From Gamarada debralockiae (taxonomy: Eukaryota; Ascomycota; Leotiomycetes; Helotiales; Hyphodiscaceae): 64,000 nucleotides of DNA. Made by a program: the position numbers and the translations under genes. The notes beneath the pieces were generated by a model. It searched no databases. It saw only the letters and a list, made by a program, of their open reading frames with translations, and had not been told where the DNA came from. Location: the NCBI GenBank assembly GCA_002803225.1, contig NXFV01001382.1, positions 1 to 64,000 on the forward strand. The letters run 5' to 3'. Each line of letters begins with the position of its first letter. Position 1 is the stretch's first letter. Below, piece after piece: positions 24,634-61,864 of the stretch.

Positions 24634-26920
24634 ATGCCGAAACAAAAGGCTCCCAAAGGAGGATCTGCATCCACCGAAATCAATGACTCCCGCTTCTCCA
24701 ACTTCACCACCGATCCACGATTCCGCCTGCCCTCGAAAAAGACCAGTCGCACTAAAATCGACAAACGTTTCTCGCGCATGCTCAATGACGAGGATTTCAC
24801 GAATTCTGCAAAGGTGGATAGATATGGAGTATGTATTTCTCATCTATTACTCTCAGATTTAGGCCGCATTCGAAGGACCCAATCTTTCATCTCCGTTGAA
24901 CGATTCTTGGAACGCTTGAAGTCTACTTAGTTCTAATCCTTCACATCTGATGAGCGTTTGTTGGATCCTTGAAATCTCCTTAGTTCTAATCATTCACTTC
25001 CATTGAGCGATTGCTAACTCCTAATTTTCCCCTCAGCGGAAGCTAAGTGGCAGTGCCAAGAAGAAAGCCCTCGAGAGATTGTATGTACCAGAAGATGAAG
25101 AGGAAGAGGCAGGGGTAGAAGAGGACGAGATCGTTGAGAAAGAATTGCGGAAGTACGATGCTGCCCGCGGTGGTGGATTTTCGAGCTCCGAAGACGAGGA
25201 GGAAGATGATGGGGGTATGCAGATCGAAGAGGAAGAACAGTTCGAATTTCCAGATATGCAAGCCGAACAAGCGGGGGTTGAGATGGGCGAAGTGAGCTCC
25301 CGGATAGCCGTCGTGAATCTGGACTGGGATAATATCCGGTCTGTCGATCTCATGGCCGTATTCAGCAGTTTTGTACGACCGGGAGGAAAGATACACAAGA
25401 TCTCGATATACCAGAGCGAATTCGGCAAGGAGCGCATGGAGAGGGAAGAGTTAGAGGGTCCACCAAAGGAGATCTTTGCGCGGAAACAAGAAGAGGAGAT
25501 CGAGGAAGAAGATAGCGAGGATGATTCTGAGGACGACGAGGAAGAAGACGAGAAGATCAAGAATGACTTGCTGAAGGAGGATGAAGGCAAAGAATTTGAT
25601 GGAGCGGCTCTACGACAGTACCAACTCGAGCGATTACGGTACTACTACGCAGTGATAGTCTGCTCAGACAACGACACAGCACAACAGATCTACGAGGCTA
25701 CAGACGGCACCGAGTATCTATCCACGGCGAACTTCTTCGACCTTCGATTCATACCTGATGGCACCGACTTCGAAGATAAGCCGAGAGATGAATGCGATAG
25801 CATTCCTTCTGGCTATAGACCCGCCGAATTCGTTACAGATGCTCTGCAGCACTCTAAGGTCAAGCTCACCTGGGATATGGACCCAGAGGAGGCGAGTAGG
25901 AAGGATGCCATTAAGCGTGCGTTCAGTGGCAGTCGAGCAGAGATCGGTGAGAATGATCTACGGGCATACCTGGGCAGCGATTCAGAGGACGAGGAAGAGA
26001 ATGAGGTCCAGGAAGAGGCCGAGGTCGATGCACCAAAATTAAGCAAGAAGGAACTCGCAAGGCAGAAAATGCGTGCTGCCCTTGGCCTTCCAGACGAGCC
26101 TACTTCTAAGTCCAAGAAGCCGGCCGGTCCTGTGGGCGATATGGAGATTACATTCACAGCCGGTCTCAGCGGGAAGGAAAAAGGCTCTATTTTCGAGAAC
26201 CAGCCGATCAAGGAGGAGACTACACAAGAGAAGTACATCCGGAAAGAGAAAGAGCGGAAAGCCCGAAGAAAAGAGAAGGCGAAGGCTATTCGTGAAGGGC
26301 GCGATCCAGAGGCGGAGAAGGAAATATCGGCTGAGCCTGAGAAAGATGCCGATCTTGGCTTTGACGATCCGTTCTTTACTACAGACGAGTCAGTTAAGGA
26401 CAAAGCGGCGAAATCTCTCCGTAAAGAGGAGCGGAAGAAGAAGCGTGAGGCCAAGGCTAAAGAGGCTGAGGAGAAAGCTTCGAATCGCGCTGAGCTAGAA
26501 CTCCTCATGCAAGACAACAGCAACGAAGCCGCACCGCATCTTGACCATTTCGATATCAACGAAATTGCTCGTGCAGAGAAGCAGGCGAAGAAGAAGGGCA
26601 AGAAGAGTAAGAAGGACAAAGTAGTTGAAGGCGGTAAGAGAGGCGGCCTGCAAGAGAGTTTTGAGATGGATGTCCAAGATCCGCGTTTTGCGAAGGTGTT
26701 TGAGAGCCATGAGTTTGCTATTGATCCGAGTAATCCTAGATTTAAGGGGACTGAGGGAATGAAGAAGCTTTTGGAAGAAGGAAGGAGGAAGAGGGGTATT
26801 GAAGCTTCTGAAGAGCAGGTGCCGGGGAAAAAAGAGAAGAAGCGGAAGCATAGCTCCGGTGAGGGTAAAGGAGAACTAAGTGGGCTGGTGGAGATGGTCA
26901 AGAAGAAAACTAAGAAGTAG
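24634..26920 (+). CDS. ESF1: ESF1, pre-rRNA processing factor
   Basis: Exons 24634-24828 and 25037-26920 give 692 residues, the usual size. ESF1 is a nucleolar protein needed for 18S rRNA maturation in the small-subunit processome. The N-terminus (SRFSNFTTDPRFRLPSKK, IDKRFSRMLND) and the RRM-like core (RIAVVNLDWDNIRSVDLMAV, then SSFVRPGGKIHKISIYQSEF) are diagnostic. So is the C-terminal NUC153 motif (QDPRFAKVFESHEFAIDPSN). Long acidic (EEEDSEDDSEDDEEE) and lysine-rich stretches are as in relatives. The single 208-base intron carries three tandem copies of the window's intronic palindrome. Long antisense open frames are shadows of the acidic repeats. Confidence 0.96.
24881..25012. repeat. Intronic palindrome family: three tandem copies in the ESF1 intron
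   Basis: Copies of the 9-7-9 palindrome lie at 24881-24905 (arms AATCTTTCA / TGAACGATT), 24935-24959 (AATCCTTCA / TGAGCGTTT) and 24988-25012 (AATCATTCA / TGAGCGATT). Start-to-start spacing is 54 and 53 bases, and the DNA between copies is also alike (CTTGAAGTCTACTTAGTTCT and CTTGAAATCTCCTTAGTTCT). The intron was therefore enlarged by tandem duplication of a ~53-bp unit. The last copy is followed by GCTAAC, a likely branch point. Confidence 0.85.
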
Positions 26921-27450
26921 AGTAGCAATTCCAAGTACAGTGCTGTGAAATCCCAATCGTTCAAACTATTTGAACAATTCAAAATCCCGAATTTTTGATT
27001 CAGTATTCATGTATTTCTGGATTGTTTTAAATTATTTGAACGATTCCAAATCTTCATCTAATCCTCCAAGTCACAAAGGGAAACTCACTTGAGACGATAA
27101 TTTGGTGGCAAAGTCTTTTATATCTGCCTAAAAACACTTTTTCCGTTTATGCCCATACCCCCCCTTTTAATGATATGCCCCTCGGTAAAATCAGCGAATA
27201 TGTGGCTAATATACAGAAATGTGAAATATGCAAGTGTTAATATCCCTTTGACCCAGACTGTAAATGGCTGAGATGAACGATCGAAACTAGCCGGGGAAAA
27301 GAGCGAATCCACATCCCGTCAGGCTCCAACCGGTCAATCCCTCCCATATAAGCACCCTCGCCCAAGCCCCCATATCCCAATCGCTCAATCGCCCACAACA
27401 ACTGAAAAGGCCCCATGTAATCCCATTTCCACCATCACCAACGAACCAAC
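26921..27450. other. Convergent 3' spacer between ESF1 and the SNF2 helicase
   Basis: 530 bases between two genes that face each other. No coding sequence. It contains two copies of the palindrome family at 26955-27045. The rest is AT-rich and presumably holds both polyadenylation regions. Confidence 0.5.
26955..27045. repeat. Palindrome family: two copies in the ESF1 3' flank
   Basis: 26955-26979 has arms AATCGTTCA / TGAACAATT. 27021-27045 ends in TGAACGATT, with a worn left arm (ATTGTTTTA). They are 66 bases apart and share AAACTATTTGAAC / AAATTATTTGAAC. This pair lies just outside the ESF1 stop codon, so it sits in 3' UTR or intergenic DNA rather than in a coding-gene intron. Confidence 0.7.
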
Positions 27451-30400
27451 CTAGTCGTCATCCTGATAATCAGGCTCAATAGACATAATCTCACCATCAG
27501 CATCCGTTCTCAGAAAACCAAATAGCTGCGCAAGCTCTCTCAAGCTCAAGCTCGGCTTCTGCTTCTCTTCGCCGGATTCCATCGCAGTATCGCAAGCACG
27601 TAGCTTATGCATCTGCATAGTAAGAAGACGCATATCGACGGAGTTATTGACGATAATACGGGTCATGTAGGTGTCTTTCTTCTGGCCGATACGGAAGATA
27701 CGACCGAAGGCTTGCTGCTCGACGGCATGGTTCCACTGTGGATAAGTCAGCCCTATTCACTAAGAATCAAGGACTTTGAACGATTGAACATCCGACTGAA
27801 CATAGGAGGAAGAGCTTACCCAAAGATCAAGAGAAATGCAGCGATTAGCCCAAGGGAAGTTGAGACCTAAACCACCACACTTGAGACCGGCGATCAAGAT
27901 CTTGATATCGTCGTTATCGCGGAACATCTTGATGGCTTTGGAGCGGTGCTCGAGGGAGCACTCGCCGGTTAGGTAGAGAAAGCCCCATTTTTCTGAGTCG
28001 CAGATGCGGCCGATGATTTTGGCTAAGAGGCGGAATTGGACGTAGACAACGACCTGGATTGGAAGGGTTAGCTCTACCTTTTTAATCGCTGAGAGGGCAT
28101 GAGCGATTGAGATATTGGGAAAGGGGGCCTCGGGAATGTGCTAAAAAGCGTGATTTTTGAATCGTTCAAATAACATGAGCTATTAGAAATTGGGCAATAC
28201 CTTATCCAACGGAGCATCGGCGAATCCCTTTAATAAAATGGCCTTTAGCATAGCTGTCTTCGCGGACGGTACAAGGGGAAAGTCGTTCTCATCGCTCTTA
28301 TCGACCCAAGTAGAATCCACAACCTTAGGTTCATAATCAAGCGCATCGCGTCCCTTGCCACTGCCGCTGCCATATCTATCCTTACGCTTCTTGCCCTTGC
28401 TGCTGCTGCTGCCACCATTAGCAGACTCGCCATCAATACTTTCGCCTTCCATGCTGTCTTCGTCGTTGGCTTGTGGACCACGGTAAGGCTTGAAGGAAGT
28501 GAAGATTTTGTCGCAGGCGGGACAGGTCGTGTAGTCGTCGGCGTCGCCGAGGGCGGTCTTTCTGTGCATGTAGGAGGTTATGCATTCTTTGCAGAAGATG
28601 TGGTTACACTGCCAATAATTAGCATCAAAGTCCGTCGATTCCAAATCGTGCAAAGAAATTGAACGATTGGGAATCGAACTCAAAGGAAAGTACTTACGTC
28701 TGTGAGCATTGGAGAGCGAGGAAGGTCGGAACAGAGGGAACAGGTGACACGTGAGTACATGTCCTCTTCAGACAAGGTCTTAAGCGCCTTATTAATCTTA
28801 AAAGCATGACCATAATCGGAAATACCAAACGGCATGCTGTCACCTGTCTGGCCTGTCTCATCCACATCCTCACCTCGATCTCTAGCAGCCTGTCTCTCCT
28901 CTTCGCTTTTTGTAACCCACACCTGACATTGCTCGTAAAACGGAATGTTCATTCTACCGAGCGATTTGAGACGGGTGCGCAGTTCCTCGAGGTCGGAAGA
29001 GGTCCAAGATTCTTTGATAGTGTGCTCCAGCATGAAGGGGTGGGAGGTGCATTGGCGGAGTCGAAGGAGTTGGACTAGAAAGACGGCGTAGTTCTTGGAG
29101 GCTGTGCCGGATGCGAAGTAGTTGTTTAGGTTGGCGCGGAAACGATTCTCGGTCTAATCATTCAGTTAGTTTGAATGATTGAAGAGCAGCGAATAGGTAG
29201 AGGGAAAGGAGCATATGGGCAATCGCTCAGTTCAGTTGAACGATTCAAAGACTAACGGATAGAGGGGTAAGAAGGCGAAGGTCGGAATCGCTCAATTTGA
29301 ATGAACCACTCAAAGAACAACGGATGGGTAAAGAAAAGAGAGGGGCCACTTACAATACGGTATATAATACGCTCTTCATTGGAAAACTGGACGAATCGAA
29401 TTTCAGGATGAGGAGGAGGCAGAGTAATGATGGCGCGGTTGAGAATCGTAGTCTTCATAGTACGTCGCATCATGGTGTAAGAAAGGAGTGTCGCAATTCT
29501 CGTATTGCAGTCCTTGGCGTCCGGATCGCAGAAGTATCGCTGGAAGACCTTCCAATCCATAGAGTAATTGGCCTTCAAGAATCGCAGGTAAGGGAAGAGC
29601 TCTTCAAGTCGATTGAGCAGGGGAGTACCCGTAAGGCACCATCTGAAGACGGATCTCAGATTCTGGCAAGCTAAAGACGTTCTGGCCGAGTTATTTTTAA
29701 TGGCATGCGCCTCATCAAGAACAACCCGATACCAATAAACGTCAAACAAATCACCCATAGACTTGCAAGCCTTCTTCCACCACTTCTTATACCCAATCTC
29801 CGCAATCAGCTCCCTATCCTTCTGATCAGGAAATGGGAATTGTCTCATAACCTCCTGATAAGAAGTAACAACAATATCTAAGTCTCTCAAAACAGCGACC
29901 GGGATTTTGGCGGAGGCTCGATAGCGCATGATTTTTGGGAATACGGAGACTTCGGCGTGGTTGCGGATTTCGTCGAGCCATTGCTCTATCACAGAACTGG
30001 GGACGACGATGAGGGTGGCTTTTACGCCGCGAGAACGATCTTTTTCGCCTGGCGGATTGCCCACCATGCAGGCAAGTGTTTGGACTGTTTTGCCGAGTCC
30101 CATTCCGTCGGCGAGAAGGCCGCCGTAAGGTGCTTCGTCGCTGAGTTCGCGTTGGATCATCCATTGGGCGCCGAGGAGTTGGTGATGATAAAGAGTGGAT
30201 TTCATGCCTTTGATCAACCATTTTCCGTCAATGGCCTTGACTTTAGCGTATCCGAAACTGCGGGATGCTTGTTGAAGTTTTGCTTTGTCGTTCCTGGCAT
30301 CTTTGGTGTTGCTTCCCTCTGGGATATTGGCGAGGAGACGTTGGAGTTGGGTTGTCTTGGTGTGTTGGCCGCGCATCTCGGGCTCGGGACCGACGTTGAA

Positions 30401-32296
30401 GATGGGGTTTTGGAGACGTTCCGTGATAGGGTCGTTGTTCATTAAATCGTTGATGATCATTTGGCCAATCTCGTCGACTCCACTGCGTTGGTTGAATCGA
30501 GAAATAGCTTGTGGTACACCAGAAGAGGAGTTACCAGCACTAGATCTGCCACTCTTTGCAGCAACCTTGCCTTTCTTTCCCATCGGAGCTTTGCCCTTTC
30601 CAGCGGGTTTGCGACCCTTGCCACCTTTAGCCTTCTGCTTCCGGGCCTTAGATCGGTCTTTTTCACGACGTTCATCTTCCTGTCGATAGAAGAACTCGCG
30701 TGCGTCCTTAGCAACCTTCTTGCGAGGCTTTTTCGGCTTAGTGACTTCCTTCTTGTTCGGGGCACCTTCAAGACCATCACCATCTAACTCCTCTTGCAGC
30801 ATTCTGGACAGCGCCTCATCAGAAGCCTGACTCGACTCCCGCTCACCAGTCTCATCGCCTTCGCCCTCAGAAGGACTAGCCGCAGCTGCTTGTCGAGCAC
30901 GCTGTTCGCGTCTTTTGCGTTCAAGAAGCTCCTCCCGATCAGCAGGCACGAAAAGACTCTCTTCCTGTGGCTGACGACTGGGACTACCTCTCGCGCAACG
31001 AAGGAGCTTCTCCTTGAGCAACCACTGCTTGCGAAGTCGACCAAGTTCGTACAACTCCGCCTCGTTGATCTTTCCGTTCGCTTCTCTGCGGGCTAGCATC
31101 TCTATTTTGACCTTCATTTCGTGGCATTCGCGGTCGTCATCGCCATCGGGCTCTTCGTGCATCCAGCTGTCGTCTTCTTGTGAACCAGTGCGCATGGCGG
31201 CATCGACTTGTTCGGGGTCATCAGTGACAACTTGGCCTTCGCGACGGCGCTTCTTGGTGTTGGTGGTGCCGGGAGAGGTTTCTTCTCCTGCGGGACGTTG
31301 AAGACCGTTGGTGTGAGAGGTATTCTTGGGGGCCTTGTTCTTGTTGAGCATGGCTCGTTGAGTTGCGATGATCGCTTCAATATCGGCCTGCTTGGGCTGC
31401 TTTGGAGGATTGGGTAGAGTAAGAGTGTGACCAAAACTGTGTTTGGGAATGCGGAAGGAAACAGGGTCGTCATTGTCATTGGCTGGCTCGGCCTTGACGA
31501 TTGGTTCTTCATCTTCGATGATAACAGGAGGCCGTGGTTCTTGCCATTTGCGCTTAGCAGCCACTGAAGCCTGAGCTGCGTCGATGACCTCAATATCATC
31601 GCTGCTATCACTATCGATGCTCATGCTTGCCTGTGGGTCGCTGAGACTCTCCATGGCAGCAGTGCGACGAGGGCTGAAGCTGACTTCGTTGTCGGAAGAG
31701 GCGAATGAAGTTTCGTGAGATTGGGGAATAGGTTGACTGGCGGTTGTCTGAGATTGAATCGGCTCTCGGTATGGAGTCGTGGGTCCATACAAGTCGTCTC
31801 GATTATCCTCTGCGTCCTCATCCTTGATCTCTTCTTTGTCCCGAGCTATTAGGGGACCAAAGATGCTTCGAGGCTTGGTGTAGACCGTGCTATGAGAAGG
31901 GTTGAGGAAGCTGGGAGGAGAGTTGGTAGGAGTCTTTGTAGTGTTCGAAGGGTTGACGAAGCTGGATCGAAATATCGGAGTCTGCAGACCATTGGAAGGG
32001 CTGAAGAAGCTGGGTCTATTTTGTATTGGAGCCTTCTTACCGCTCGAGTGAGTGAAGAGGTTGTCAGGTCTCGAAAGCTGAAGAGGTGTAGCAGGCCATT
32101 GAGAAGATTGCTGAGTATCAGGAACCTCAACAGTAGGCATGGGAATATCGGCATCTTCATCGGCATAAGGTGAGACGTAATCATCCATCAAGTAAAGATT
32201 CTCATCGCCAGAGTCATGTCGAGCGACCTCATTATTGTCAAGGAGCCAGTCGGCTGGGCCACGGGAGTTGTTGAGGAAGTCTTCGAGGTCATCCAT
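27451..32296 (-). CDS. RAD5/RAD16-like SNF2 helicase with embedded RING finger
   Basis: Five exons (29354-32296, 28698-29153, 28201-28608, 27820-28140, 27451-27735) join in phase to 1470 residues. A long, low-complexity acidic N-terminus precedes the SNF2 ATPase domain. Walker A is LLADGMGLGKT near residue 732. The Walker B/DEAH box is VVLDEAHAIKN near 859, followed by RWCLTGTPLLNRLEELFPYL. A C3HC4 RING finger is inserted between the helicase lobes (CSLCSDLPRSPMLTD then CNHIFCKECITSY, near 1120-1160, and later CPACDKIF). The C-terminal lobe ends with CGGLGLNF and WNHAVEQQAFGRIFRIGQKK. This layout is that of RAD5/RAD16/ULS1-type translocases: DNA-dependent ATPases that also act as ubiquitin (or SUMO-targeted) ligases in repair and chromatin. 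All four introns carry the palindrome family. Confidence 0.92.
27761..27785. repeat. Palindrome family copy, helicase intron 4
   Basis: It lies in the 84-base intron 27736-27819. The right arm is exact (TGAACGATT); the left arm is worn to TAAGAATCA. This is the weakest of the helicase copies. Confidence 0.55.
28160..28184. repeat. Palindrome family copy, helicase intron 3
   Basis: It lies in the 60-base intron 28141-28200, so the 25-nt element makes up over 40% of the intron. Arms are AATCGTTCA and TGAGCTATT. Confidence 0.75.
28644..28668. repeat. Palindrome family copy, helicase intron 2
   Basis: It lies in the 89-base intron 28609-28697, which splits the RING finger coding sequence. Arms are AATCGTGCA and TGAACGATT (8 of 9 pairs). 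A further GATTCC/GGAATC extends the inverted symmetry outside the core (TCGATTCC ... GGGAATCGA). Confidence 0.8.
29156..29310. repeat. Palindrome family: three copies at 65-bp spacing filling helicase intron 1
   Basis: Copies at 29156-29180 (arms AATCATTCA / TGAATGATT, perfect pairing), 29221-29245 (AATCGCTCA / TGAACGATT) and 29286-29310 (AATCGCTCA / TGAACCACT). Spacing is exactly 65 and 65 bases. The 200-base intron 29154-29353 is essentially three such units. In transcript sense, the copy nearest the 3' splice site reads through ACTAAC (likely branch point) and abuts the AG. The element thus supplies splicing signals. Confidence 0.88.
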
Positions 32297-34608
32297 GGCT
32301 ATGATTTCGATATGGTATGTTGATATTTGAGGTAGGGCATCCGTCCGGTATTGAGACAGACGAAGAGCTTAATTAGTAAGAGGAGACTTGCGTCGTATGT
32401 ATTCACGCTCTCGTTAAATGTTTGTAGTGAACTGAGGCTTCGGCGAAGAACATGAAGGTGAGGATTCCGTTTCCGTCGTAGGTTTTGGGCATTGAGGCAG
32501 TCGTCGGATGTTTGAAGTTGAACAGGAGACCGGCGAAGAGCTTGCAATTTTGCTTCGAGGAGCTATTTGGCAGCGAGAGATCGTGTTCTTCGATGAACAA
32601 GAGGCCGTTGGAGAGCAGATGTTCTGCTGCTGCAAATGTTAGCTGGCTGCTAAGAAGAAATATTGTTTGTATGTATGAAGGTATGCGTAAGTATGTGTTG
32701 ATAAAGAGAAGGTATGAGTAAAAAGTAGTGTTGTGATTGAGAAAGCTAAATGTTTGGCAAGAAGGGAAGAGGAGGCTGGCGGGAGATTTGCATGCTTATG
32801 CAAATTTCCTTGAGATTCACTCCAACTGTAGTTGAAGCAAACCCTCAAAAATACTCGAAGATAGCATTTACATGATTCCCCATCAAAGCGCCAAAGATTG
32901 CTGAAATGGTGTCCACTTGATCCGGTATGTGTGTATGTATGTAAGAATGACGTTGTGTAGAAGAGTAGGGTTGAAGAAGTGGATGCGTTGATGTGTGGTA
33001 AGAAGGAAAGAGGGACGTTGAAGGAAAGTTGGGGCTTATATGCTACTTTTTCGGGGGATTTACTGAAGCTGCTGTTGGAGCTAAGTGTTGAAGATTGTTG
33101 GAGGTGGCATTTTACTGAATCTCTTTCACTTGATTGATGCTCAGGGGAGAGGATAGTGAGAGGGACTCGAAAAGCCAATGTCCAAGATTCATTGAATGAA
33201 TGACTTGATCTGAAATCCAAGAGATGTGCGAATAGCCTACTTCGAAAGTCCATTCCTCTCGTCTGATGTCCATCTGAACAATGAATGATCACTAAGTGAA
33301 TGGCTCAATCGGTCCAACTGTTTGAACAATTGACGGCTAAACTCCGGCAGATTTGCCCACTGGGGACAGAAGAAGGGAGGGCAATATGTAAATTGACGAC
33401 AGGAAATGAAAGAATGAAATCGCATACGAGTGGGTTGTCCGATGCCGATTTAAGTCCCAATGAAAAGCTGCTCTCGCTGTCGATGTCGGGTTTGTAAGGG
33501 TCTGGAAGAAGATAAAGAGCCCAAAGAGATGGAAAGTGATTGTTAAAGCGCGGCTCTCGGGGAATGAAAGTAATGAGAAATTGAGCTTGCCCATCCCACA
33601 GAAGTGGACTGTGGAGGTGCATTTGTGGGGTGAAGATGGCTGGAAGCTGATACTGAACAAGGAAAGCTGGACTTACTCAATAATATGCGAAACTGAAAGC
33701 CTGTGCTCTGGAAACTTGAAAGAGATCAGAACGGTTTGTATGTGTCGTTGCTGGTGTATGATGAAAGAGTGGAATGGGCTAAAAAATGCTGAAATGGTTG
33801 GACTGGTTGTTGGTTATGTGAAGGAGGATATTACGGCTTTGGTGAACATCTAAGTGGTGAAAGTAGAGATTGAGAATATTGGTTTGTTTTTGAGGAAGTA
33901 AGAGGATGTGAACTCTTCAATGTCGATGTCAGAATGAATGGTTGAGTGAAGTAGAGATAGAGATTGAAAGGCTGGTTGTCGTGGGTGTTGAGTATTGTTG
34001 AAATGCTTGATCGTTGTCGTGATGGTGGCTAAAGTCTACAGCTGTGTGAGTGATTGAGAAATGGTAGTTGAGTAAGAAAGTGATAAAGAAGTCTGAGGTT
34101 GTTGGTGGTTGAGTGACTGAAGTTGAATCTCGGCGACAGGGGAATCGAGGGTTGAAGCAGAGAAAAGATTTACTTACAAGGTAACTAATGAGCGGTTTTC
34201 AGTGATTTTGAAGGTGGTCGAAGAGTAGAGTTCCCGGACTCTGGAGTTTGATTTGCGAAGTTGAGCAGAACAATCAGCCGAAGGGAGGCAGGTCGTTGAA
34301 GTAAACTTGAGTGAATGAAGAGCCGGAGTAATTTGCTGAATCCAGAATAGCATTTGCTGATTTCGTTACGTTAGTCGAATCTTACGGTAGTCACGAGCAT
34401 TAAGTCGGTCTTGAGGTAACTTTTATTCAATTTCCTACTTAGGCCGCCGATCTTTCCATCTCGAAAAATCCTTGGCCAACAAAAGTCAGGCCGTAATCAA
34501 AACAAGGACATATTGAAGTCCAGTTCAACGCTCGAATCGAAGAATATCCCAACGCCAAAAACTCCTCGCCCATTCTTTCCTCCCTGGGACAAGATTACAT
34601 ATACTTAT
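32297..34608. other. Long purine-rich upstream region of the helicase gene
   Basis: No gene is supported over 2.3 kb. The plus strand is strongly purine-rich (GA/GTTGA runs), so the helicase-sense strand is pyrimidine-rich. This creates long but motif-free minus-strand open frames full of Ser, Leu, His and Tyr. Blocks such as AAGATTGCTGAAATGG and AAGATTGTTGGAGGTGG recur loosely at about 170-base distance. One palindrome-family copy lies at 33307-33331. A long 5' leader or upstream-ORF-rich promoter is possible. Confidence 0.45.
33307..33331. repeat. Palindrome family copy upstream of the helicase
   Basis: Arms are AATCGGTCC and TGAACAATT. It lies 1 kb upstream of the helicase ATG, outside any recognised intron. 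Confidence 0.55.
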
Positions 34609-34610
34609 TA

Positions 34611-34733
34611 CGGAGGTGTTAAGGTAAGGTGTGTTACACCGCCTTCGCTCGCAGGGATTATTTTGTATGAGCAGAATGATTTGGTTGGTGGCAGAAAAAG
34701 GCGGTGTAACACAACTTTCCCCTAATGCCTCCG
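34611..34733. mobile_element. 123-bp MITE with ~35-bp terminal inverted repeats, TA-flanked
   Basis: The ends are CGGAGGTGTTAAGG... and, inverted, CGGAGGCATTAGGG.... They align over about 35 bases with one indel and share the long core TGTGTTACACCGCCTT. TA dinucleotides at 34609-34610 and 34734-34735 fit a Tc1/mariner-type target duplication. With no coding capacity and only ~50 bases between the repeats, this is a Stowaway-like miniature element. Confidence 0.8.
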
Positions 34734-34735
34734 TA

Positions 34736-37100: not shown

Positions 37101-40100
37101 TGTAAGTATACGACGATACAAAAAGAGAGAAATAGTAGATGGAAAAATGCATTTCTGATCATGCGCAAATAGAAAGGAACTAACGCATGCTGAAATTCGA
37201 CGACATTGTGACTGTTAGATTGGGATGCGAAATTGGGATGCGAGAGAAATGAGTTGGCCTTGTTGTTTTGGGCTGCTAGCGAGGCGGAATGTGCAGCTGC
37301 GGGCGGTCGGGGCCCTGTCCGTTCGTAAGAATGCGTGAAAATAAATATCGCACGAGAGACCGAGTCAGATAAGTTGCGCCGTTGCGTGAGAGTTTGCGAT
37401 CTTATCAATCAAGATCTCAGGCGAATAATGAGGCAGGAGAATGACTGTTTCGCAAAGGTAGATTGCGTTTGAATCGTGTTGTACACAGCCTCGTTGATTT
37501 GTGGCCTTGTTTGGGGGCTGCGAAGGGAGAGCTCGGACGAATGTAGCGTGTTTCGATGGCGGAGTCGAAAGATCAGACCGTCAGATGGGTCGCCGTGTGA
37601 GAAGCCTCGTGGTACCACCTGTATTGTTGCGAAAAAATCTCAGGCTCCCTTTTTGATCGATATCCAAAGACGGGAAAAGATGGTGAGAAGAAGAGTCTCA
37701 CGGTAAGATTTGAAGGAGAAACACCCAATTTCGGGCGGTCTCCCTCTCATCAACCGCGATGGGTTCTTGGCAACCGCACAGCCCACGTCCACCCTCTTGG
37801 CAAAATTGGATCTTCACCAAAAACTCTATTAAGGAGTCCACTATCCGCGTATGCTTCATCTGCGGTAAAGATTCCTTTGAAGCTCGCGGTCGTTACTCCT
37901 TTTGTTCAGAGACGCGGTGGGGCGAATTGCATTCCTCATTTTATTTACAGCAATCGCCCATCATCTACGTTGTCGAGTTATACAGTATCTGACATCTCAC
38001 TGCAGCTGCCAAAATATGTATGACGCCCCTTGTTCTTCTCTCTGACGTTATTCCGGCATTTTCAAAACCAAGAAAGTCGGCACTTGGCGACTTGGCAAAC
38101 TCTACTTCTTTCCTTCTTGACAGCACGATCAAGCACCTCAAGCTCAACACTATTTCTCTTCGATTCGGGGGCCTGCTTGGAGTTCGATGGCGACTCGTCA
38201 ACAGCGCATCATCGCGCAGCGAAGATCACCTGCCTTCTGTCATCGACCAATTGAAGTTTTACGATTTGAAGGGTTTGGAGGATTTTGTTTCGTTTCTCCT
38301 GTTGATCAGCTTTTTCGTTGTGGCTGAGACCCACTGACGCATTTTGAAACATGACCCTTGCCACTTGATCACGTGGCATACGCGTGATGCGCAACGTCGT
38401 TGGGCCTAAATGTGCCAACCAACGCGCGTTGTGAGTCAGAGAACGGAGATACAATGTTCTTTGGGACGGGAAAATTCAAAACTATGAGCGCGGCTTCGCT
38501 GGATCTACACTTGCCCGCATGGCTGGGATCTCTGAGGCGATCAGTCACCATCCAAGCGGTGAGCCGCAGGGCCTCCAATCGATCGCCATGCAGTGTTTCG
38601 AGGATGTGAGTTCCCGATTATGTTTTGCCACGTTGTCCCCTACTGCAACAATGGCCCTCCAATCCTCGCCTGCCGCACACTTTGTCCCAACATGACAGGA
38701 TTATCCACCTCACAAACCCGAGCGTGAGCAAATGTCACTCTTGCACTTGGAAATGCAGAAAATATTCTGACAGCGTCCGTGACGTAGCCGTCATTCAAAT
38801 CATTGAATTTTCAGTGAAGCAGGAATCGTTGCCCAATGCAAAGCGATCAGTCCACAGATCGCTGTCCCATCATTCACAGTCGTTCATGGTGTTTGTCGTT
38901 GACGACCGACATGGCGCTGACGCCTGTTGGGGCTGTTCATAGTCCTACATAAAGAGGGAATCCGCGAACTAGTAACTGGGTTATGGGTACGACATTTTGC
39001 ACAATTTTATTTTGTTCAGTCTTGTTGAACGATTGGCAGAAGTCGAAGGATGATGTACAGGTGGGAAGTTGGAGTAATAACCGATAAGGAGGTGGACCAG
39101 ATTGCGCGAGCTGTTCTTAAAGCATCGATGGTGAGCACCCTTAGGGTTCTTGCAATTTCACCGAGATCCTCTACCAACTTGCCCCGATCGATATTCGATG
39201 ATCGAGTTGTTCAACCATGACAGTCAGCGTCTTCTCCATTTGTATAGTCCTTGGCAGACGTGGTCTTCTTCGGTTTAGAAGGGACATCGGAGCATAAGCA
39301 CCATTAGAGCCATCTTCATTGCCATCAGCTTACAAGGTGATATACTTCTACTTGTCATTGGTAGGCAGAGCAGGGCATCAGCGAGGAGAATGAAGTAGAG
39401 ATCATTCTTGGGCACGGCTGAACTCATTCTGCCTGCCAGGAGAGTGTTTCGGACTTGAGCTCGAAAGTTATCCTATAAGATCGAAATTCAAGCATCAGTT
39501 CTACACTGCAAATCATTCACCTCTCGCGTCTAAATTGTCACATCTGTGCTTCGTGGCTACCTTCTAACTTCTGAACTCAGACTCTTTCTGTTGAGATCAA
39601 TTTAGAGGATTGGAAGATGCAATGACTCGGCATTATGGGTTTAAGCAGTCAATCAACAAATATCAACGATAGATCTTACATGATTGAGTGGTCAAGTATC
39701 TTTACTTTTCAAGCCCTAGCGTTTACTCCCGTTGTCTATTTTTCAGCGCCGATCGAAATGTCATCATCGATCTCTCCGCCTACGTGGGCAGCTTCGAGGC
39801 AATAAAAAAAGCTTTGTCTATAGCGTATTCAAGAGCAGCATGAAACTTCTAAGTCAAATGTAGAAATTGAGATGGGATTCTTCGATCTCAATGCAGTTTA
39901 AGGCACCTTCATGTACTTATCATGTCTTGCAGTCCTTGTGGTAGAAGTGCATCGCAAATCGGCATTCCGCAGATCTCTTTTCAAATTTCCTCTGCTTAAT
40001 ATAGACCTTGAAAGCACCTTTCTTCTAGAAGAGTACTCGAAGGGAGGTTTGGACAACGCCATGGGTACCCGTCGAACTGCCCAGAAGTTTGAGGCGGCGT

Positions 40101-44818: not shown

Positions 44819-47800
44819 TTACTTTGAGTAGACCAAGTGTGTTCCTGTCTTGCCTTCGAACTCGACAGTTGGGCCGCCTGGAAACGACACAAATCCGTTT
44901 TTGCCAAGGTGTGACTGGACAATCTAGACAATTTTCAAGTTAGCATTTTTTGAACGAATTGCTGAACAGATTTGAGCTATTAAAAAGCCGGATCTCAGAA
45001 ACAAACGATACTGAATCGCTCATACTCTTCGAACGAATTATTTGGAAATAGGGGCAGCTGTCAGACGGGCCATTCACTGAGTTGGTCTGAGCGATTGAGA
45101 AGTCACGTACCACTGGCTCTTTGATTTTGCCATCACTCCACTCAAATTCAACTACAAATCCTCCTCTTGCACGAACTCCCTTCAATGAGCCCGAGCTCCA
45201 AGGGCATGCGGGCAGAAGCTGGATCCGGCCGTCATGTGACTGGATCAACATCTCAATGATGCCAGCACAGCCTCCAAAATTACCATCAATTTGGAAGGGT
45301 GGGTGGTTATCGAGAAGATTAGGTAGGGTTGAGTCCTTCAAAAGACAACGAATACTGTGGGGATATCGGAATCAGTAATCGTTCAAGAGAGATGAAAGAT
45401 GAAAGATTGGAGCCGAGAAGACTTTGTGAGTTCCCAACTCTGATAGTATACTCCGTAGATTTACGTAGGGCTCATCATCTAGGTAGAATTCGAAAAGGAG
45501 TTGCAATGTGGATATACGTACTGCTCAAGGCTGCCCTCGGCATCACCCACTAGAAGATTCCAGCATTAGCATTACTTGACCAAGGAGGATACAGGAGTTC
45601 TGAGACCATTAATGAATCGCTCGTCACACTTGAACAATTCAGTCATGGTGAAGGCGGAGGTGGAAAGTCAGAAATCTCCCCGGAAAAGAAAAGAAATATC
45701 CCGAAATGATACATACATCTTGCATGTAAATTGATCAACCATGCTCGACTCCACCCGGTATGCCCTCCTCCATTTTCTGCCCTTCGCCGAAGAACGATCT
45801 CACTCGCCGCCGCAAGACTCGGCGTTCCCTTTGGTGTTATGCAGTTCCCTGGGTAGAGACCCCACAGATGTGAGGTGTGCCGATGACCAGGCTCGAATTC
45901 TTCGTAATCGTGCTGCCATTCGTGGAGTTGTCCGAATGATCCTATTGACATTGGTGGTAATTGCGCGTGGCATTCTTTCGCCCTTTTGAGTAACTCGTCA
46001 GAGGCAGAGATTCCCAGCTCGGAAACACTTTTGACAAATATGTCGAGTATGGCATCGATGATTTGCATATCGATTGTTGAACCTTCGCAGAGCACACCTT
46101 TTGTGCCCTCTTTGGTCAAAAACGTGTTTTCTGGTGATAAAGATGGGTTGGTAACGAGGTATTTGCCAGAAGAATCTTCGATGAGAAAGTCTACCAGGAA
46201 TTCCACGCATCCGCGAAGGATTGGGAACATCTTCCGTAAGAATCGTTCATTTCCGTTGAACGAATAGTTCTCCCAGATATGATAGCAAAGCCATGCACCT
46301 CCCAGTGGCCATAAAGTTGCAGGCATCCAACGATCTCTGTGGAATATCGGTAGTCAGCCTTTGATTAGGGGGATGAAAAGAGCTTCGAAGGGGCGTTTTT
46401 TTCATTTCAACACCATAGACATCCTTTCGAGCAGATCTAGGACTGCCACAGTATTTGAAATATCGAAAATCAATCATGCACCTCCCTTGAATGATACATT
46501 TTTGAGAGGGAACTTCTAGGAACACAAAGTCCAATTCGCTCATTCCTATTGAGCGATCGAAAAAGGAGATATCAGGGATGCTTTCCTTCTGCCATTTCAA
46601 GACTCTCTTGAAATTACTGAAGCGTGTGGAACGATTGATATCTTACATTCCAATGAATGCGGTAGGACCGAGAAACTCAGATGAAAAGGAATTACTTACT
46701 GTGGATCTGTATCTGCCCATATATCTGTATTATGATGGGCCGCCCATCCTCGACAACCATACATCGTCTTCGCCGTCACCTTCCCGCGCTCTGCCATACG
46801 TTCGAGATGATCAAAAAGTGGAGCTTCGCATTCACTAAGACCACAGAGATTTGCTGGCCAGTAATTCATTTGAGTATTGATATTTATCGTGTATTTGCTT
46901 CCCCAAGCAGGTTGAAATGATGGATTCCAAAGGCCTTGAAGGGTAGCTGGCAGGGCTTTGTCGCCTGGACGACTGCAGGAGATGAGGAGGTATCGGCCAA
47001 AATTGTGATAAAGTACGACTAAAGAAGGATCAGGCGTGCTAGAAGCAAGAAGTCTCTCATTTGTTGGCAGTGATTTCATATCTGTTGTCGTCGTACCTGC
47101 TCCACAGAGATGGAGCCGTAATCGTCCAAACAATGCCCTGTAATTCTCGATATGCCGCTTCTGGAGATCGTTTCGAGCAAGAGCTAACTTGGCATCTAGA
47201 CTTGCCGCAGTTTCAGGTTGAATGTTCCGGAAAGTCGTCTGGGCTGAGATCACAATCGTAACCTTCTGCGACCTCGCCACAAGGCAATTCCCTATGGCGT
47301 CGACAACTCCGTCATCTTCGCACCGAGTCTGTGCGATACAGGACACAGAATTGGCGTTCTTTCCACCACCTGCCGTAGCTTGCATCTCGATTCGGCCATT
47401 TTCATTGACATTTCTGGCAATGATCGAGTCCACAAACTCATTGGTCTCGTATTCCCTTTCACTCACTCTGGTCAATCGTATGGTGAGTTCCGTCTTCTCG
47501 GAAGCCTCAAGTCGAATGATTAGGGCATTGTCTGGTTCACTGGCAAAGATTGCCCGCGAATATTGAACCCCATCATGCTCATACTGCACGCTGGTGACGG
47601 CCGTCTGTAAGTCCAGAACTCGACGATAATTTCTCACGTCTTTCTCCTCGTGACCAAACTCTAAGGTCAATGTGCCCAGTGGCTCGTAGTGGCGTTGACT
47701 GTGGGGTGTTGCAAAGAAGGCGCGCTTCACCAGCTTCTCGGCTTCAGAATGTTGATGCGCCCGGATCAATTCGCGAAGGCGGGGCAGGTTTTTCAGCGCG

Positions 47801-55012: not shown

Positions 55013-57155
55013 ATGAATACACAATCTGGGTTTGTCTGGAAGGCAATACCACTTGACGACCCAGAAATTTCGCTGAGGTATCTACCCACAGTACCCCGCG
55101 TCTCCACCAACTTCCTGATGTTTCGCGCAGAGAAATCTACCCTCAAAGAGCACAGAGGGAACTAAAGGCACCCCGGCAATACAATAGACCTTTGCCTGAC
55201 CCTAGTCGCAACCTCCAGGGTTTGAGGAAAGATGTCGGGCTTCGCGCCGGTCTTGTAGTCGTTGTCTTCGTCATCAACTTCACGGTCTTGACCTGGCAGG
55301 TCGCAAAAGGCAAACTCCATGCGACTACAACTATGTACCAAGGCTCATGCAAGAACGCAAGATCAATAGATACCTGGGTCCATGCATTCGTCAACATTCT
55401 GTCCACCTGCTTGTTGGCAGCCTCGAATTATTGTATGCAATATCTTTCTGCTCCGACGAGACCGGAGGTAGACAACATGCATAGGCGGAGGAGGTGGATG
55501 GATATTGGGATTCCATCTGTGCATAATTTGAAATCTCTGCCGAGGTCGCGAGTTGTATTGTGGGGAATTCTGGCGATTACTTCGTTGTTTATCCACCTTC
55601 TGTAAGTATACATCCAACGAATGGATTGTCAACTTCTTATGGAAGCAGATATAACGCCTCAGTCTTCTTCACTATCGTTACTCCGGATTATACTTATGTC
55701 ACCGTCACAGAAGACTTCCAAAATTTAGGCGCTTCGCAAGACTCGTACACTTCATACTGGGGTATAGATCCGACAACCTTCGATAACGTCGACCAATGGG
55801 TATACCTCTCGAACGAAGAGTGTATCAACACCTACCTCCCTACTCTCGCCTTGACCAAGAATCGCAATCTCCTCTTAGTCACTCCCTCCAACAGCACACT
55901 TTCGATCATGGGCCAGTTTCCACTCACACAACCAAACACTGTCACTGCAGACGAGATTGTGTATTGGCCCTGTGTTCCAAGCCAAGATTACAGCATCAAA
56001 ATCTGTACCACGTGCTGCACACCTGCAGCTCTCGACGCGGATGATTGGACCGTGAGCGGATACCCGATCTCCTACTGCCTCAGCCAACAGTTTGAGGAAG
56101 AATGCAGGCTCCAAGTCTCAACTACATTCTTGCTCATCGTCACAATCAGCAGTGCCATCAAAGTCGCTGCAATTCTCCTCACGATCCGAGTCTTCACTCT
56201 CCCTCCCCTAGCCACCCTCGGCGACGCCATATCCTCCTACCTACAGACCCCCGAAGCAATAACCAAAGGAATGTGTACCATAGACCGCCAACAAGCAGTG
56301 AAAGGTTGGCCAGCAGAATCCACTCCCAAGATCTTCCACCAAAAGAAGCAATTCTGGTGGAAAGCAGCCTCTTTGAAACGAGCCATCACAGCCAATCTAC
56401 TCGGCCTCATTTCTCTCGGCGTAATATCTGGACTGCTACACATGTGTCTCTCCGGCACAGCAGGAGCAACAACTCTCAAAGCACTATGGGCCGACGGATT
56501 CGGATCCACAACGCAAAAGCACTCCCTCGGCCATGCCTTCACCTTGAACCTCAGCCTCCTCATCACCAACTTGCCCCAATTGCTAGTAACTTCCATCTAC
56601 GTATCCTACAACTACCTCCTAACTTCTCAACTCGCTAACGCTGAATTCCAAAAATATGCGTTCCATCGTCTTCCTCTCCGCGTCACGAACCCTAGAGGCC
56701 AGCAACGGAAAACACACTATCTTCAACTCCCCTACTCCTACGCCATTCCCTTCCTAGTAGCTAGTGGATTGATCCACTGGCTTACCTCACAGTCATTCCT
56801 CTTCGTGCGCATTGTCAGCCTTTCTCAGACTGGTGCTGAGAGGGAAGCGGGACTCTCTGGGCCGTATTATAGCTGTATCGCAATGATCTTTTTGCTCATC
56901 TTTGCGACTTTGGTGGTTGTAGCTGGGTTTGCCAATGGGTTTCGAAGATACGATGGTATGATTCCGGTTGGTGCTACGTGCTCTGTGTGCGTTTCGGCCG
57001 CTTGTCATAACGAGGAATATCTGAAGGAGGAAGCATGGTTAGGCCCGGTGGCTTGGGGCGATGTTTCTAGATCGGAGAATAGTGTGGCAGTGAGGCATCT
57101 GACTTTCACGAGTTTGTTTGCTCAAACGCCTGTTGAAGGGGCGCTGTACTCGTAG
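55013..57155 (+). CDS. DUF6536 multi-pass membrane protein
   Basis: Three exons, 55013-55077, 55131-55601 and 55649-57155, give 680 residues. The start at the ATG of MNTQSGFVWKAIPLDD is chosen because the 53-base intron (GTATCT..GCGCAG) carries it in frame into the conserved part; no other ATG does. The N-terminal DUF6536 domain has LRAGLVVVVFVINFTVLTWQ, MYQGSCKNARSIDTWVH, NILSTCLLAASNYCMQYLSA and RWMDIGIPSVHNLKSLPR. An extracytoplasmic domain with several cysteines (residues about 210-330) follows, then six or so more helices and a short tail with MIPVGATCSVCVSAACH. The family is confined to fungi and its function is unknown. The gene is intact. Confidence 0.88.
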
Positions 57156-58005
57156 ATTCCAGCTTCGCCACTATAAAAACACAATGCCTTTGGCTTGAAC
57201 TTCAATCATTCTTACCTCCATCAAGACCACGAGTAGAAGGGGTGTCCATTTCATTGCTGCTACCAGGAGCTCCTCCTCTTCTTTATATCCCGAATGCTTA
57301 TTTGTTTCGAACGATTATAGTAATTTCTTAAACGTGCTGGAAGTGTGCCCACTGATCTCGTTACTACGGATCAATTCAGACCTAAATCATCTCGCCAAAC
57401 ACGCCTGCTCGCGCTTCCACAGCAGCGCGACCACCCCTTGCGACGACCAAATGCACCACGACAGCGAGAAGTGCGCTCGACAATGCAAGCCTATTTCGCA
57501 GTACTTTATACACAATGCAAGGCGAATCATCTGCGACTTGTACTCACAACGTCATTCGTTGGCAGAATAGCGCTTGCTCATGAGAACTCGCAGCCCGTTC
57601 ATATGAAGTGTTTTTGGGGGTCCAAGGGAGCGAATGCGCGAGTGAGAAGAGATTAACTTACTTACTTATATGATAGTTCACAAGTCGAGTCGCCATTGGT
57701 CGCAGGAGGATGGGCGAATGGTGAATTTTTATTGCTATCTAAAGCTACTTTTCCCTTTGACTGAATCCTTCCATCAACAAAAGCAAGCGAATAAACCCTT
57801 TCTTTTGTGTCATAATACTCATCGTCAACTCCGAAACATCAATGTAAAGTTACTTTTCTGTGCGAAGCGAACCCTTTAATAAGCAAGCCCAAGCAAAACC
57901 TCTTCTTTTCCTATCATAATCATCAACCATCGTCTCCAGTCTCAAACAGCCTCCGTCCCAGTCCAGCCCAGCCCAGCCTAAGTCAGGTTCCCACCCCGAG
58001 CAATC
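57156..58005. other. Convergent 3' spacer without a gene
   Basis: 850 bases between genes that face each other. A single TCGAACGATT half-site of the palindrome family is near 57307-57316. The rest shows no gene, and is rich in short A/T tracts suited to 3' ends. Confidence 0.45.
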
Positions 58006-60511
58006 CTAAACACCAACAACACATTCCCCACCAGGGAACGTAGCCTCATACTCCAACACCAACTTAACCCCACATCCCGGATTCAACTTAACATTCCAAG
58101 CAACCTCACCCTCCTTCTTCGCGGTCGCCTCCGCTGTTCCCCATCTAACCGCCCTCTCAACCTCCTTACCATTCTCGGTTCCATAAGCACTAGCTCTCGC
58201 AGTCTTAGCAGATCCCTTGCTCAAAATTCCCGTAGCAGCGGGCATAAGAGCAAAGGATGAAGAAGCATTCATGCCAGTTCGAATAGGTTCCGAACCAGGT
58301 TTGAGGCCACGAGGAGCAGTGATTTCGATGTGGAGGCGCTCGTCTTCGGAGACGGGCACTTGATCGAGGACTGTGAGTTCAACGGGGGCGTTGTTCTTGG
58401 TGTTCGTGATGGTGATTGCACGATTGAAGACATTGCTGTCTTCTTTCGAGAAAATACCAGACTGGCTTCGCCGAACCGTAGGCTTGGTGTATGAAATCTG
58501 GATAGCAGGATCAACACCGAGTGGAAGGGAGAACGACTCGCCGGCGGAGCAGCGTGGGAAGGTCGCCTGGCCTAAGAATGATCCATCAAGACTGAGGCCA
58601 AGTGGACCTTTAAGGAGTGTGATCTTCGAGGCGTTGCGGAGTCGTGCTTTGAGGAAAGCGACTTGGCGCAGTTTGCCAATAACGATGTGCGAGAAAACAA
58701 TGTTCTTGAAGTCGACTCTGGCGATCTTGTGTTTGATGGTAGAGTTGGAGGGAGCGAGTGTCTTGTGGCCAGGGACATCGTAGGTTGTGGTCATGCCAGA
58801 TTCTTCCCAGGCGCCTTCTTCGAAGACGAGGGAGTTGATGTCTTGATGGGGGCCCGAGGGCGCGGGCCCGCTGTCGAATAAGCCGAAGCCCATGTCCTCA
58901 TCCACCTCATCCTCATCTGCAGCGACAAGACCCTTATCTTGATATCTAGTGCTTTTCGCTTGGTTTACCAAGCGTGCCACAGGCTGAGCGTTCGATCCGA
59001 AAAGGCTAGAACCACCGAAACCACCGCCTCGCCCGCCTCGCCCACCGAACAGTCCTCCCGTTGGTGCAGGCGGAGGAGCAGCAGCAGCATTGGAATGCAT
59101 CCCGAATTGCGCAGCCGATTGGGACAAGGCTGCTGATCTCGAGGCAAGTTGGTCGAGTGCTTCTCCACGCTCAACCACCTTGGCAGCTCGTCGGCGTTTG
59201 TGCTCTTCAACGTACTCCTTCTGAGCACTCATGTCGACACCGAAGAGTTGATGTCTGGGTTTCTGTGCTTGGTTCGCATTGGTATTCCATTCCGTTCGCT
59301 TCATATTTAGCTCATGCTTGGACATCAAGGCGCTGTCAGTGTTGCGAGCTCCTTTCATCAAACGAACGTGCCATGGGTGGAGAGTCGGGATTTGTTCGCT
59401 GAGACCAGAGAATGTGGTTTGTGATGTAGAGAGAATGACTTTGGCATCGCGCCAGGTCTCTGAGGTGGTGTTTTTCAAATCTGCGCTATATTCGAGGATA
59501 CCGGTGCACTTGACAGAGTTCAAGTTGAGGTCGTAACGTGGGGACCAGGATGCCGAATAAGTGATGTATGAAATGGAGAGAGAGATTGAGCCATCCTTGA
59601 GTGCTTCAGGCTCGTGGAATGTAGTGGTAGCCAGATTTGTGACTTCGCCCTCGGTGATTGAGCTGCGTCGGGATGATCCTGGAGTCAAGGTCGAAGACTC
59701 CAGGGAGATTGTGATACGGTAGACTTTCTTTGCCCAGAATGAGTCTCTCTCGGCCTTGATTCTCTGCTTCTCCTTGAACATCTCAGCCTTCTTCCGAATC
59801 TTCTTCTCCTTCAACTTGGTCTTTTCCTTCTGTTCCTTCAGTTGAGCCTTTACCAACTGCTTTGCCAACTTTGTCTTCTCCTTCTGCGCCTTGGTTATAT
59901 CCTCGTCGATCTTTTCAGCCGCGGCGGCGCAAGCAACATGATCGGAGAAGATCTTCTTGCGTTCCTCATTGTAAGCCTTCAGAATGTCTGGAAGCTTTTC
60001 CGGAGGGGTTCGCTCGGTAGCGATACTCTTGCCGAAATTGTCGCAGATTTGTAGACGATTGGCAGCGTTGTTGATCTTCTCCTTCTCGGCCGAGAGAGCG
60101 TCGTTGAGTTGTTTGATCTTCTTGTCGATTGTCTTCATGGATTCGTGTTCGGGCTCGGATTCGCTCTCATCATCGTCCTCCTCCTCTGAGTCTGATGGGT
60201 AGACATCTTCGTAGACATCACGGTTGGGAAGCAGATCGACTGAGACCTCGGAGATGGTAGCTGCTCCGGTTCCTTCGACCTTGATGGAGTGTTCGTCAAC
60301 TGTAGGGGCAAGTCCGTCGATGATGATCTGGTTCGGTCCAGGCTTGCATTTGTTAGCATGATATTAGTGGTTTGGGTGAGAAACAACTTACCTTGAGGGT
60401 GATATCCTTGATATCGCGGATTATCTGTGCTCGAGTAGGGAAGAGGAGCACACTTCTGGTGCCTAGATCCCGAATGCGGAACTCCTGTTTGTGAGGGGAG
60501 TCTGTTGCCAT
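58006..60511 (-). CDS. DUF4140/DUF4139 (mucoidy inhibitor A-like) protein
   Basis: Exons 60392-60511 and 58006-60342 give 818 residues. The start ATG (MATDSPHKQEFRIRDLGTRS) opens the DUF4140 domain, which continues VLLFPTRAQIIRDIKDITLK and after the intron NQIIIDGLAPTVDEHSIKVE. A Ser/Asp/Glu acidic patch and a long lysine-rich coiled coil (residues about 120-250, KLAKQLVKAQLKEQKEKTK) follow. The DUF4139 domain has SISYITYSASWSPRYDLNLN. A glycine-rich linker (TGGLFGGRGGRGGGFGGSS) interrupts it, and the domain ends ELTVLDQVPVSEDERLHIEI and KLNPGCGVKLVLEYEATFPG. Fungal members are cytosolic proteins of unknown role, distantly related to bacterial MuiA. Short intron, no palindrome element inside. 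Confidence 0.92.
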
Positions 60512-61864
60512 GGTTGCGTTTGCTGACCTGTATCAGGTGGTGGTGTGATTGTGCTTAGGAATTAGAAGCTGAGTGACTGGAGATTTTTAACCCTGAGAAA
60601 TGATAACACGAAGGCGAAGAGATACCTTGATGCTTGGTTTGAGATAAGATTAAGAGGAAAGAGGAAGGAAAGCTCAACTTATACCTACCCCGCGCGTCGT
60701 TCGTCACTACCTTTCAAGGCAGCCTCCAGGTCAGCCTTGCTGTGCTCGAAAGAGCCAATGGCGGCGGCTTGGTACCTGACTAGACGCGAATCATCTTAGT
60801 TTTACAGCTGAAAGAAGCATAAATCCGTCAACAGGCAGCACTACGGGGTAAGAGTCACACTTTTCTTTGGTAGTCTTCTACTGCAATGCTGCGGCTGATG
60901 AGTTGAGAGGTGGAGATGAGAGAAGGAAATAAGAGGTGGCGGAGCGCGGGTTGGCTTTTCAGACGGGTCGATGCTGAGTCATCAGTGAAGGTTGAAAATT
61001 GGTGCCTACCTGGAGAGAGATCGCTCCAAACGAATCCCGTCATAATTGGAATGCCAGATATCAACCGTTCACTTCCTTGTAACGATTGTTTTCTTGCAGA
61101 AGAATCCTTAGCCGACAGAGAACCTAAGTCGCTCACCCTGATTGGGAAGTTGATCTCGAGGATAACAGTAGAAGTCCTAGCTCTCTAATGGCGGAGCTTT
61201 CGATCACCGAAGCGGGCTGAACGATTCATATCTTATATCCCAATTATTGCGGTATTCTTCAACTTTTGAACACCTGGAAACTAGGTAGGTGTTTGTCTTT
61301 AAGTTGTTCACCGCAAACCCAAACAAACCAACAAATAATCCCTCCCAATGAATCTTCTAATCTCTAATCTCACAAGCGCCCCGTGCCGCACGCTCGGGAA
61401 TTTAAGCACAGCAGGAACAAACAAGCAGTCAGACAATCCTCTATCGCGAAAGTTTGCATAACTCCAATCCCAAAGGACCATGATTCTATTCTTGGGTTCG
61501 GTGCGATGTGCAACAAAATCCATTTGTTTTGGTGTTGAGGGTTCCAAGTTCTTACGAGGTCGGGAATGGCGCGTCCTGGTCTTGTTGATGGCCACGCCGC
61601 TGAAGTGGGTTTGATACTTCCCCAATGGAGTAGGGGCGCGCGATTCTATTCTTGGAGACGGAGAATGCGATGTGCAACAAATAGTCCATCGAAGGTGGGT
61701 TTATAGCAGCTGGATTGGAGATTGGGGAGATTCTTAGTCGGTAGATCTGGGATACCTCCTGCTGACAGTTTGTAAATATCACAGCTGTGGTTCATTTGTT
61801 GAAATCGGTATCTTTGAACTTCTACATTCAATTCTATGATTCATTACTCTATACACATCATTTG
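60512..61864. other. Upstream region of the DUF4140/DUF4139 gene with repeat DNA
   Basis: No gene. It contains the palindrome-family inverted pair (61037-61256) and a loose direct duplication at about 158 bases. In that duplication, GATTCTATTCTTGG followed by TGCGATGTGCAACAAA occurs near 61485-61520 and again near 61644-61680. The right end is the 3' flank of the sirtuin gene. Confidence 0.45.
61037..61256. repeat. Palindrome family: inverted pair of the long form
   Basis: 61202-61256 is the long ~55-base form also found in GH95 intron 1 (TGAACGATTCATATCTTA, then TATCCCAATTATTGCGGTA). 61037-61087 reads as the inverted, diverged partner (TCATAATTGGAATGCCAGAT, ATCAACCGTTCA, then GTAACGATT). 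The pair frames a ~220-base segment, as in a small transposon with inverted ends, located in non-coding DNA. Confidence 0.6.

Follow-up and report, generated by a model that had tools for sequence, protein, structure and literature searches.

Gamarada debralockiae is a helotialean fungus, and a stretch of 64,000 nucleotides of its genome (contig NXFV01001382.1, hereafter the window, meaning the whole stretch that was analysed) carries a 25-nt palindrome that recurs in the introns of three genes, encoding ESF1, an SNF2-type protein and a GH95 glycoside hydrolase. The question raised by this locus is whether the palindrome marks introner-like elements (ILEs), which in fungi were reportedly first described in a paper of 2012, or whether it is an element of a different nature that such introns happen to carry. 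The earlier note on this DNA, made from the sequence alone, favoured a hairpin-bearing family of ILEs. The reading that is regarded here as probable joins two things, a family of copied ILEs and a palindrome that would serve as a protein-bound DNA dyad.

In number and geometry, the palindrome is a real motif. The pattern AATCGTTCA-N7-TGAACGATT has 17 matches in the window at up to three mismatches, against 0.04 expected from shuffles, and 21 at up to four, in good agreement with the roughly 22 copies reported earlier; the eleven or more exact 9-mer arms were also recovered, being 11 with both strands counted together. The genome searched comprises 54.3 Mb in 1112 contigs, the window being part of contig C668. 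It holds 40 exact copies (reversed control 0) and 697 copies at up to two mismatches (reversed control 1). The constant 9-7-9 geometry noted before is strict, as a spacer of 7 gave 139 matches at up to three mismatches and every other spacer from 0 to 20 gave at most 10, in 250 kb of sequence with some overlapping loci. With nine copies at up to two mismatches in 64 kb, the window is about ten times as dense as the genome average, and its copies form two regional clusters (24.9–29.3 kb and 45.0–46.6 kb). Six 10-kb stretches picked away from the listed palindromes contained a single copy at the same threshold. Few bases are conserved outside the arms. The 40 copies whose arms are identical have 39 different loops, and the similarity of the loops (3.254) equals that of a column-shuffled null (3.224, standard deviation 0.047). 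Fresh copies of one element would share loops; no copy lineages are seen in these.

Intron alignments indicate that an ILE family, that is, introns of common descent in many unrelated genes, exists in this fungus. Its best-defined sub-family, ILE-A, measures about 165 nt between its predicted splice sites, with shorter and composite relatives beside it. One intron of 175 nt matches 21 other places with 73–91% identity (E at most 2e-7; the range refers to this single source copy, and five of the 21 places were read), and eight of these matches stop exactly at the 3' splice site. Six ILE-A copies, of 164, 166, 166, 166, 167 and 175 nt, can be aligned from the 5' to the 3' splice site, with a mean column identity of 78%, and eleven introns with one of 70%. 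The overrun at the 3' splice site is at most 3 nt in all 19 comparable pairs of the best 25; the 5' side of the full alignments also ends at the splice site, as seen without exon flanks. Pairs of introns reach alignment scores of 108 (loci L023 and L037) and 98 (L024 and ESF1), compared with a shuffled maximum of 34. Moreover, a 21-nt pattern from the ILE-A body that leaves the palindrome out has 35 genome matches (control 0), at least 12 of them with a same-strand 3' module or BLAST match that overlaps or lies within about 100 nt downstream. Since the compared copies are 73–91% alike, the family appears to be decaying rather than fresh.

The 3' end of the family can be counted as well. The right arm fused to a branch point, TGARCGATT-RCTRAY (TGARCGATTRCTRAY), occurs 103 times in the genome (control 2), and the 3' module TTGARCGATTRCTRACTC at up to two mismatches has 320 candidate copies (control 13). 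Twenty of the 103 fused copies were read, each in a stretch of 451 bases, and in 16 of them the module falls within an intron predicted on the same strand, three of these introns reaching the end of the stretch. The other four were called non-coding (L058, L063, L064) or assigned to the opposite strand (L065), and L063 and L065 still align with the family. Nine of ten host peptides fall into nine different Pfam groups (ABC transporter, Aquarius, peptidase M48, homogentisate dioxygenase, histone deacetylase, bZIP, pectate-lyase-like, 6PF2K and ESF1), the tenth being without a match. Additionally, the introns of L023 and L037, which are hosted by an unassigned and a pectate-lyase-like gene, are similar from GTGAGTTATTCGG to the branch point, suggesting a second sub-family. 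Chains of palindromes form some of the long introns. In L073:1-451, a predicted intron of 270 nt contains a chain of five at up to five mismatches, the last one at the branch point. One ILE-A copy (L082:132-297) is located in the gene of Aquarius, an intron-binding protein.

Two introns of the window match a profile of eleven introns taken entirely from elsewhere in the genome. GH95 intron 3 does so nearly end to end (45502-45355, model positions 18-167 of 167, E 1.4e-14). The ESF1 intron, which contains near-repeated units of 53–54 nt, does so in its 3' part (24964-25028, E 2.3e-10) and in a second unit (24906-24959, E 8.5e-6); its last palindrome adjoins the branch point GCTAAC, and the intron aligns with that of the 6PF2K gene in L024. 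For the other introns the likeness fades: the 3' end of GH95 intron 1 matches the ILE-A profile weakly (E 0.15), the 3' end of intron 4 matches the 3' module model weakly (E 0.14), and neither GH95 intron 2 nor any SNF2-gene intron has a significant ILE-A profile match, what matches in all of these being the palindrome itself. The proposal of ILEs at this locus is supported for the family as such and for GH95 intron 3 and the ESF1 intron, and is not supported insofar as the palindrome alone was taken as the family's marker. The claim that all nine introns of the three genes contain the motif holds for eight at up to four mismatches, the ninth having one exact arm only (Table). Of the 43 introns predicted in the window, none holds a palindrome beyond those named. 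The motif is not confined to introns in the window either, being found in GH95 exon 2 and, outside predicted introns, at 26955, 27021, 33307 and 39010. In an alignment with nine relatives, the exon 2 site shows no insertion, so that the palindrome overlays conserved coding sequence. About 0.02 exonic copies with one mismatch would be expected in 25 Mb on a uniform-composition estimate, and this exon holds one. In the SNF2 gene, the intron with the uncertain 5' splice site may have a nearer donor at about 28200.

Table. Introns and palindromes of the window, by position (intron assignments in the SNF2 gene are predictions)
Feature	Position	Strand	Remarks
ESF1 sole intron, 208 nt	24829..25036	+	composite ILE (profile match); palindromes 24881-24905, 24935-24959, 24988-25012
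ESF1 ILE 3' module	24976..25036	+	palindrome, branch point, 3' splice site
Palindrome, 1 mismatch	26955..26979		between ESF1 and SNF2 gene
Weaker palindrome	27021..27045		follows 26955-26979, between ESF1 and SNF2 gene
SNF2-gene predicted intron	27736..27819	-	one exact arm only, 27777-27785
SNF2-gene predicted intron	28054..28320	-	palindromes 28084, 28160; 5' splice site uncertain
SNF2-gene predicted intron	28609..28697	-	palindrome 28644-28668
SNF2-gene predicted intron	29154..29353	-	three palindromes 29156, 29221, 29286, spacing 65
Palindrome, 3 mismatches	33307..33331		not in predicted intron
Palindrome, 3 mismatches	39010..39034		not in predicted intron
GH95 intron 4, 187 nt	44924..45110	-	palindrome 45014-45038
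GH95 intron 3, 167 nt	45355..45521	-	near full-length ILE-A member (profile match); palindrome 45377-45401 adjoins branch point
GH95 intron 2, 167 nt	45550..45716	-	palindrome 45615-45639
Palindrome, 1 mismatch	46241..46265		inside GH95 exon 2
GH95 intron 1, 363 nt	46337..46699	-	weak palindromes 46472, 46534, 4 mismatches each
Palindrome, 3 mismatches	61063..61087		exon by crude gene finder, context unsettled

In a sample of loci, most palindromes lie outside predicted introns. Among 72 unique copies at up to two mismatches, 47 are intergenic, 19 intronic and 6 exonic, in loci whose bases are about 44% intergenic, 14% intronic and 43% exonic. The counts come from 39 loci, after the omission of 11 duplicate or overlapping loci and of two repeated sites (74 reduced to 72), and as 38 of the 39 were drawn by palindrome matches, the rates are not genome averages. 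Genes were called, with palindromes masked, by a crude, home-made gene finder (a hidden Markov model) whose output was assessed by eye for three genes. GH95 introns 3 and 4 escaped it, as did the ILE in L013, and the count of intronic copies is too low because the ILE introns of L013 and L005 were taken for intergenic DNA. Exons are poor in copies, with six of the 72 in about 43% of the bases, and the equal density in exons that the earlier note had named as fatal to its proposal did not appear. What is not supported is the equation of palindrome and ILE, given that 47 of the 72 copies lie between genes and that 57 intergenic copies have flanks which resemble the ILE-A body no more than 66 controls do (p 0.42); the idea of intergenic copies as ILE-A relics was dropped on this result. 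Likewise, the flanks of 44 intergenic copies show no homology with each other beyond that of 34 controls, and a larger repeat around them was rejected as well. L013 was omitted from both tests. Even in introns, copies that are not linked to a branch point have flanks without likeness to ILE-A (n=33, p 0.37). Within 20 nt of intergenic copies, CGGAT or ATCCG is enriched about threefold over background. A preference for gene orientation was considered and rejected, the number of copies per kb being 0.52 in tandem gaps, 0.50 in convergent ones, 0.35 in divergent ones and 1.27 at locus edges.

Two loci deserve separate mention. The stretch L013:1-1760 contains 15 palindromes at up to four mismatches and a full ILE-A at 559-720 without any predicted gene, and may be the remnant of a gene that had several ILE introns. 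At L077:168-260, an open frame contains two single arms and no full palindrome at up to five mismatches; the encoded peptide resembles a glycoside hydrolase, possibly GH92.

Whether introns have been gained can be approached through relatives of the GH95 gene. The closest ones belong to Leotiomycetes/Helotiales such as Cadophora and Phialocephala, not to Dothideomycetes, and reach at most 71% identity among those named; on this one protein, the fungus is placed near Cadophora. One metagenome protein, P0010 (81% identical), comes from a 7.2-kb contig, continues across the intron-1 position and stops exactly at intron 2, and a second (P0014, 69%) reads through all four intron positions. The latter has an insert of 17 residues, seven residues past the intron-1 position, which resembles an unspliced intron of 51 nt, and its gene caller therefore seems blind to introns. 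These comparisons suggest that the GH95 introns are absent at the positions read through in P0010 and P0014, although they may instead have been lost in those lineages.

The palindrome itself is most likely a DNA dyad bound by a dimeric protein, because its arms are conserved together with their 7-bp spacing, whereas loop and flanks vary freely, and hundreds of copies occur, many of them outside ILEs and often in clusters. The distances between neighbouring palindromes are consistent with this: 14 of 33 gaps measure 6–8 and 12 measure 27–31, about two helical turns apart, a phasing matched by one in 5000 uniform simulations, with a best period of 10.9. The ILEs share a 3' end in which the palindrome is followed by the branch point RCTRAY, with the 3' splice site about 20 nt further on. 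In the proposed scheme, the ILE lineage would carry one dyad site beside its branch point. As for how the ILEs multiply, RNA reverse splicing, which is what is usually proposed for fungi, would be the default assumption. Several observations weigh against the joint reading of copied ILEs and a protein-bound dyad. The transcribed strand of introns has TG rather than CA in 20 to 7 cases, and still in 15 to 6 without the branch-point-linked copies, which is unexpected for a pure DNA site. Gaps of 13–35 are weakly phased (162 of 5000 simulations were as phased) and those of 36–61 are not (1439 of 5000). Furthermore, the ILE copies lack the near-identity of those described in Dothideomycetes, three of the 16 module-bearing predicted introns run to the end of their stretch, and intron gain rests on the two metagenome proteins.

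The strand bias just mentioned favours the G-U form of a stem, and together with the adjacency of palindrome and branch point in more than 100 places, it would fit an intronic RNA hairpin that aids splicing from upstream of the branch point, the structure that the description 'hairpin-bearing' had implied. The arms lend no support to a stem, however, and we consider this reading very improbable. At arm position 6, T is kept in both arms in 40 genome copies, changed to C in one arm in 56 and in both in 6, as opposed to about 45, 45 and 11 under independence. Complementary double changes number 15 at 123 sites against 19.3 from shuffles, with no excess, although the mismatch cap lowers double changes. 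RNAalifold yielded no consensus structure, either for 27 modules or for 11 introns, none of nine palindrome pairs is changed on both sides in six ILEs, the folding of three introns is ordinary when compared with shuffles (z-scores -0.47, -1.52 and 0.16), and most sampled copies lie outside predicted introns. On the lack of a compensatory excess, of a consensus fold and of an unusual folding energy, the hairpin was rejected. Separately from the palindrome, a central inverted repeat of ILE-A pairs in 85% of cells when six copies are compared, and two of its pairs show changes on both sides; it is only suggestive, its covariation score being reached by 62 of 500 shuffles.

The presence of the motif inside and outside introns could also be explained from either end. 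On one side, every palindrome might belong to an ILE, with the non-intron copies being decayed ILEs or introns missed by the gene finder. Introns are indeed missed (GH95 introns 3 and 4, L013 at 559-720 with E 1.7e-16, and L005 with E 6.5e-8), and chains of palindromes make up some long introns. This account is nevertheless unlikely in view of the 57 intergenic flanks that score like their controls, the 44 without homology beyond controls, and the copy that overlays a conserved GH95 exon. On the other side, the bare palindrome might be a tiny mobile element, such as a miniature inverted-repeat transposon or a foldback unit, that ILEs have captured. Its hundreds of copies, their local clusters and their scarcity in exons (6 of 72) would suit such an element, as would the near-repeated units of the ESF1 intron and the increase of intron length with palindrome number, by 37 nt each (in 23 to 24 introns shorter than 300 nt). 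We regard it as decidedly unlikely, because no direct duplication was found at the borders of 119 sites in comparison with shuffles (k 2-8; with looser offsets, 6 were seen where 3.3 were expected), so that a transposon with target-site duplication was rejected, loops are without copy lineages, flanks are without homology, and the exonic GH95 copy is an overlay and not an insertion. A bolder extension of the joint reading is that a DNA-binding protein recognises the 25-bp dyad at bare sites and in ILEs alike and that this contact with DNA, not RNA reverse splicing, spreads or targets these introns; this is viewed with strong doubt.

Comparison with known systems places the family in context. 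According to PMC4457414, the ILEs of the Dothideomycetes Fulvia fulva, Dothistroma septosporum and Zymoseptoria tritici are spliceosomal introns copied into unrelated genes, are longer than the regular introns of 50–55 nt and degenerate fast. The family described here resembles them in its copied introns in unrelated genes, in a length above that of regular introns and in its degenerating copies (splicing here is predicted from sequence), and differs in the fungal class, in copies that are 73–91% alike instead of near-identical, and in a branch-point palindrome that is also common outside introns. In Hypoxylaceae, sister stwintrons and cropped introns are likewise copied, are internally symmetrical and lack flanking duplications (PMC8469720); their symmetry consists of terminal inverted repeats of 45–55 nt and a different central palindrome, in contrast to the 25-nt dyad near the 3' end in this fungus. 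In a 2022 survey of introners from diverse eukaryotes, Pezizomycotina among them (PMC9860276), those of ascomycetes are reported to be outliers without terminal inverted repeats or target-site duplications. Its main text, as far as covered here, does not name Leotiomycetes or Helotiales, and its supplementary lists may include this fungus or a relative. Among the matches listed in the open-licence literature, there was no report of an introner family in Leotiomycetes/Helotiales, and two of them (PMC3510045 and PMC11889510) deal with different subject matter.

Copied introns that carry a conserved dyad offer a handle on intron gain in fungi. As the dyad is common to introns and bare sites, it may serve as bait for a candidate binding protein. 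If a dyad-binding protein did prove to spread these introns, it would provide a DNA-based route for ascomycete introners, which the 2022 survey reports to be without transposon marks.

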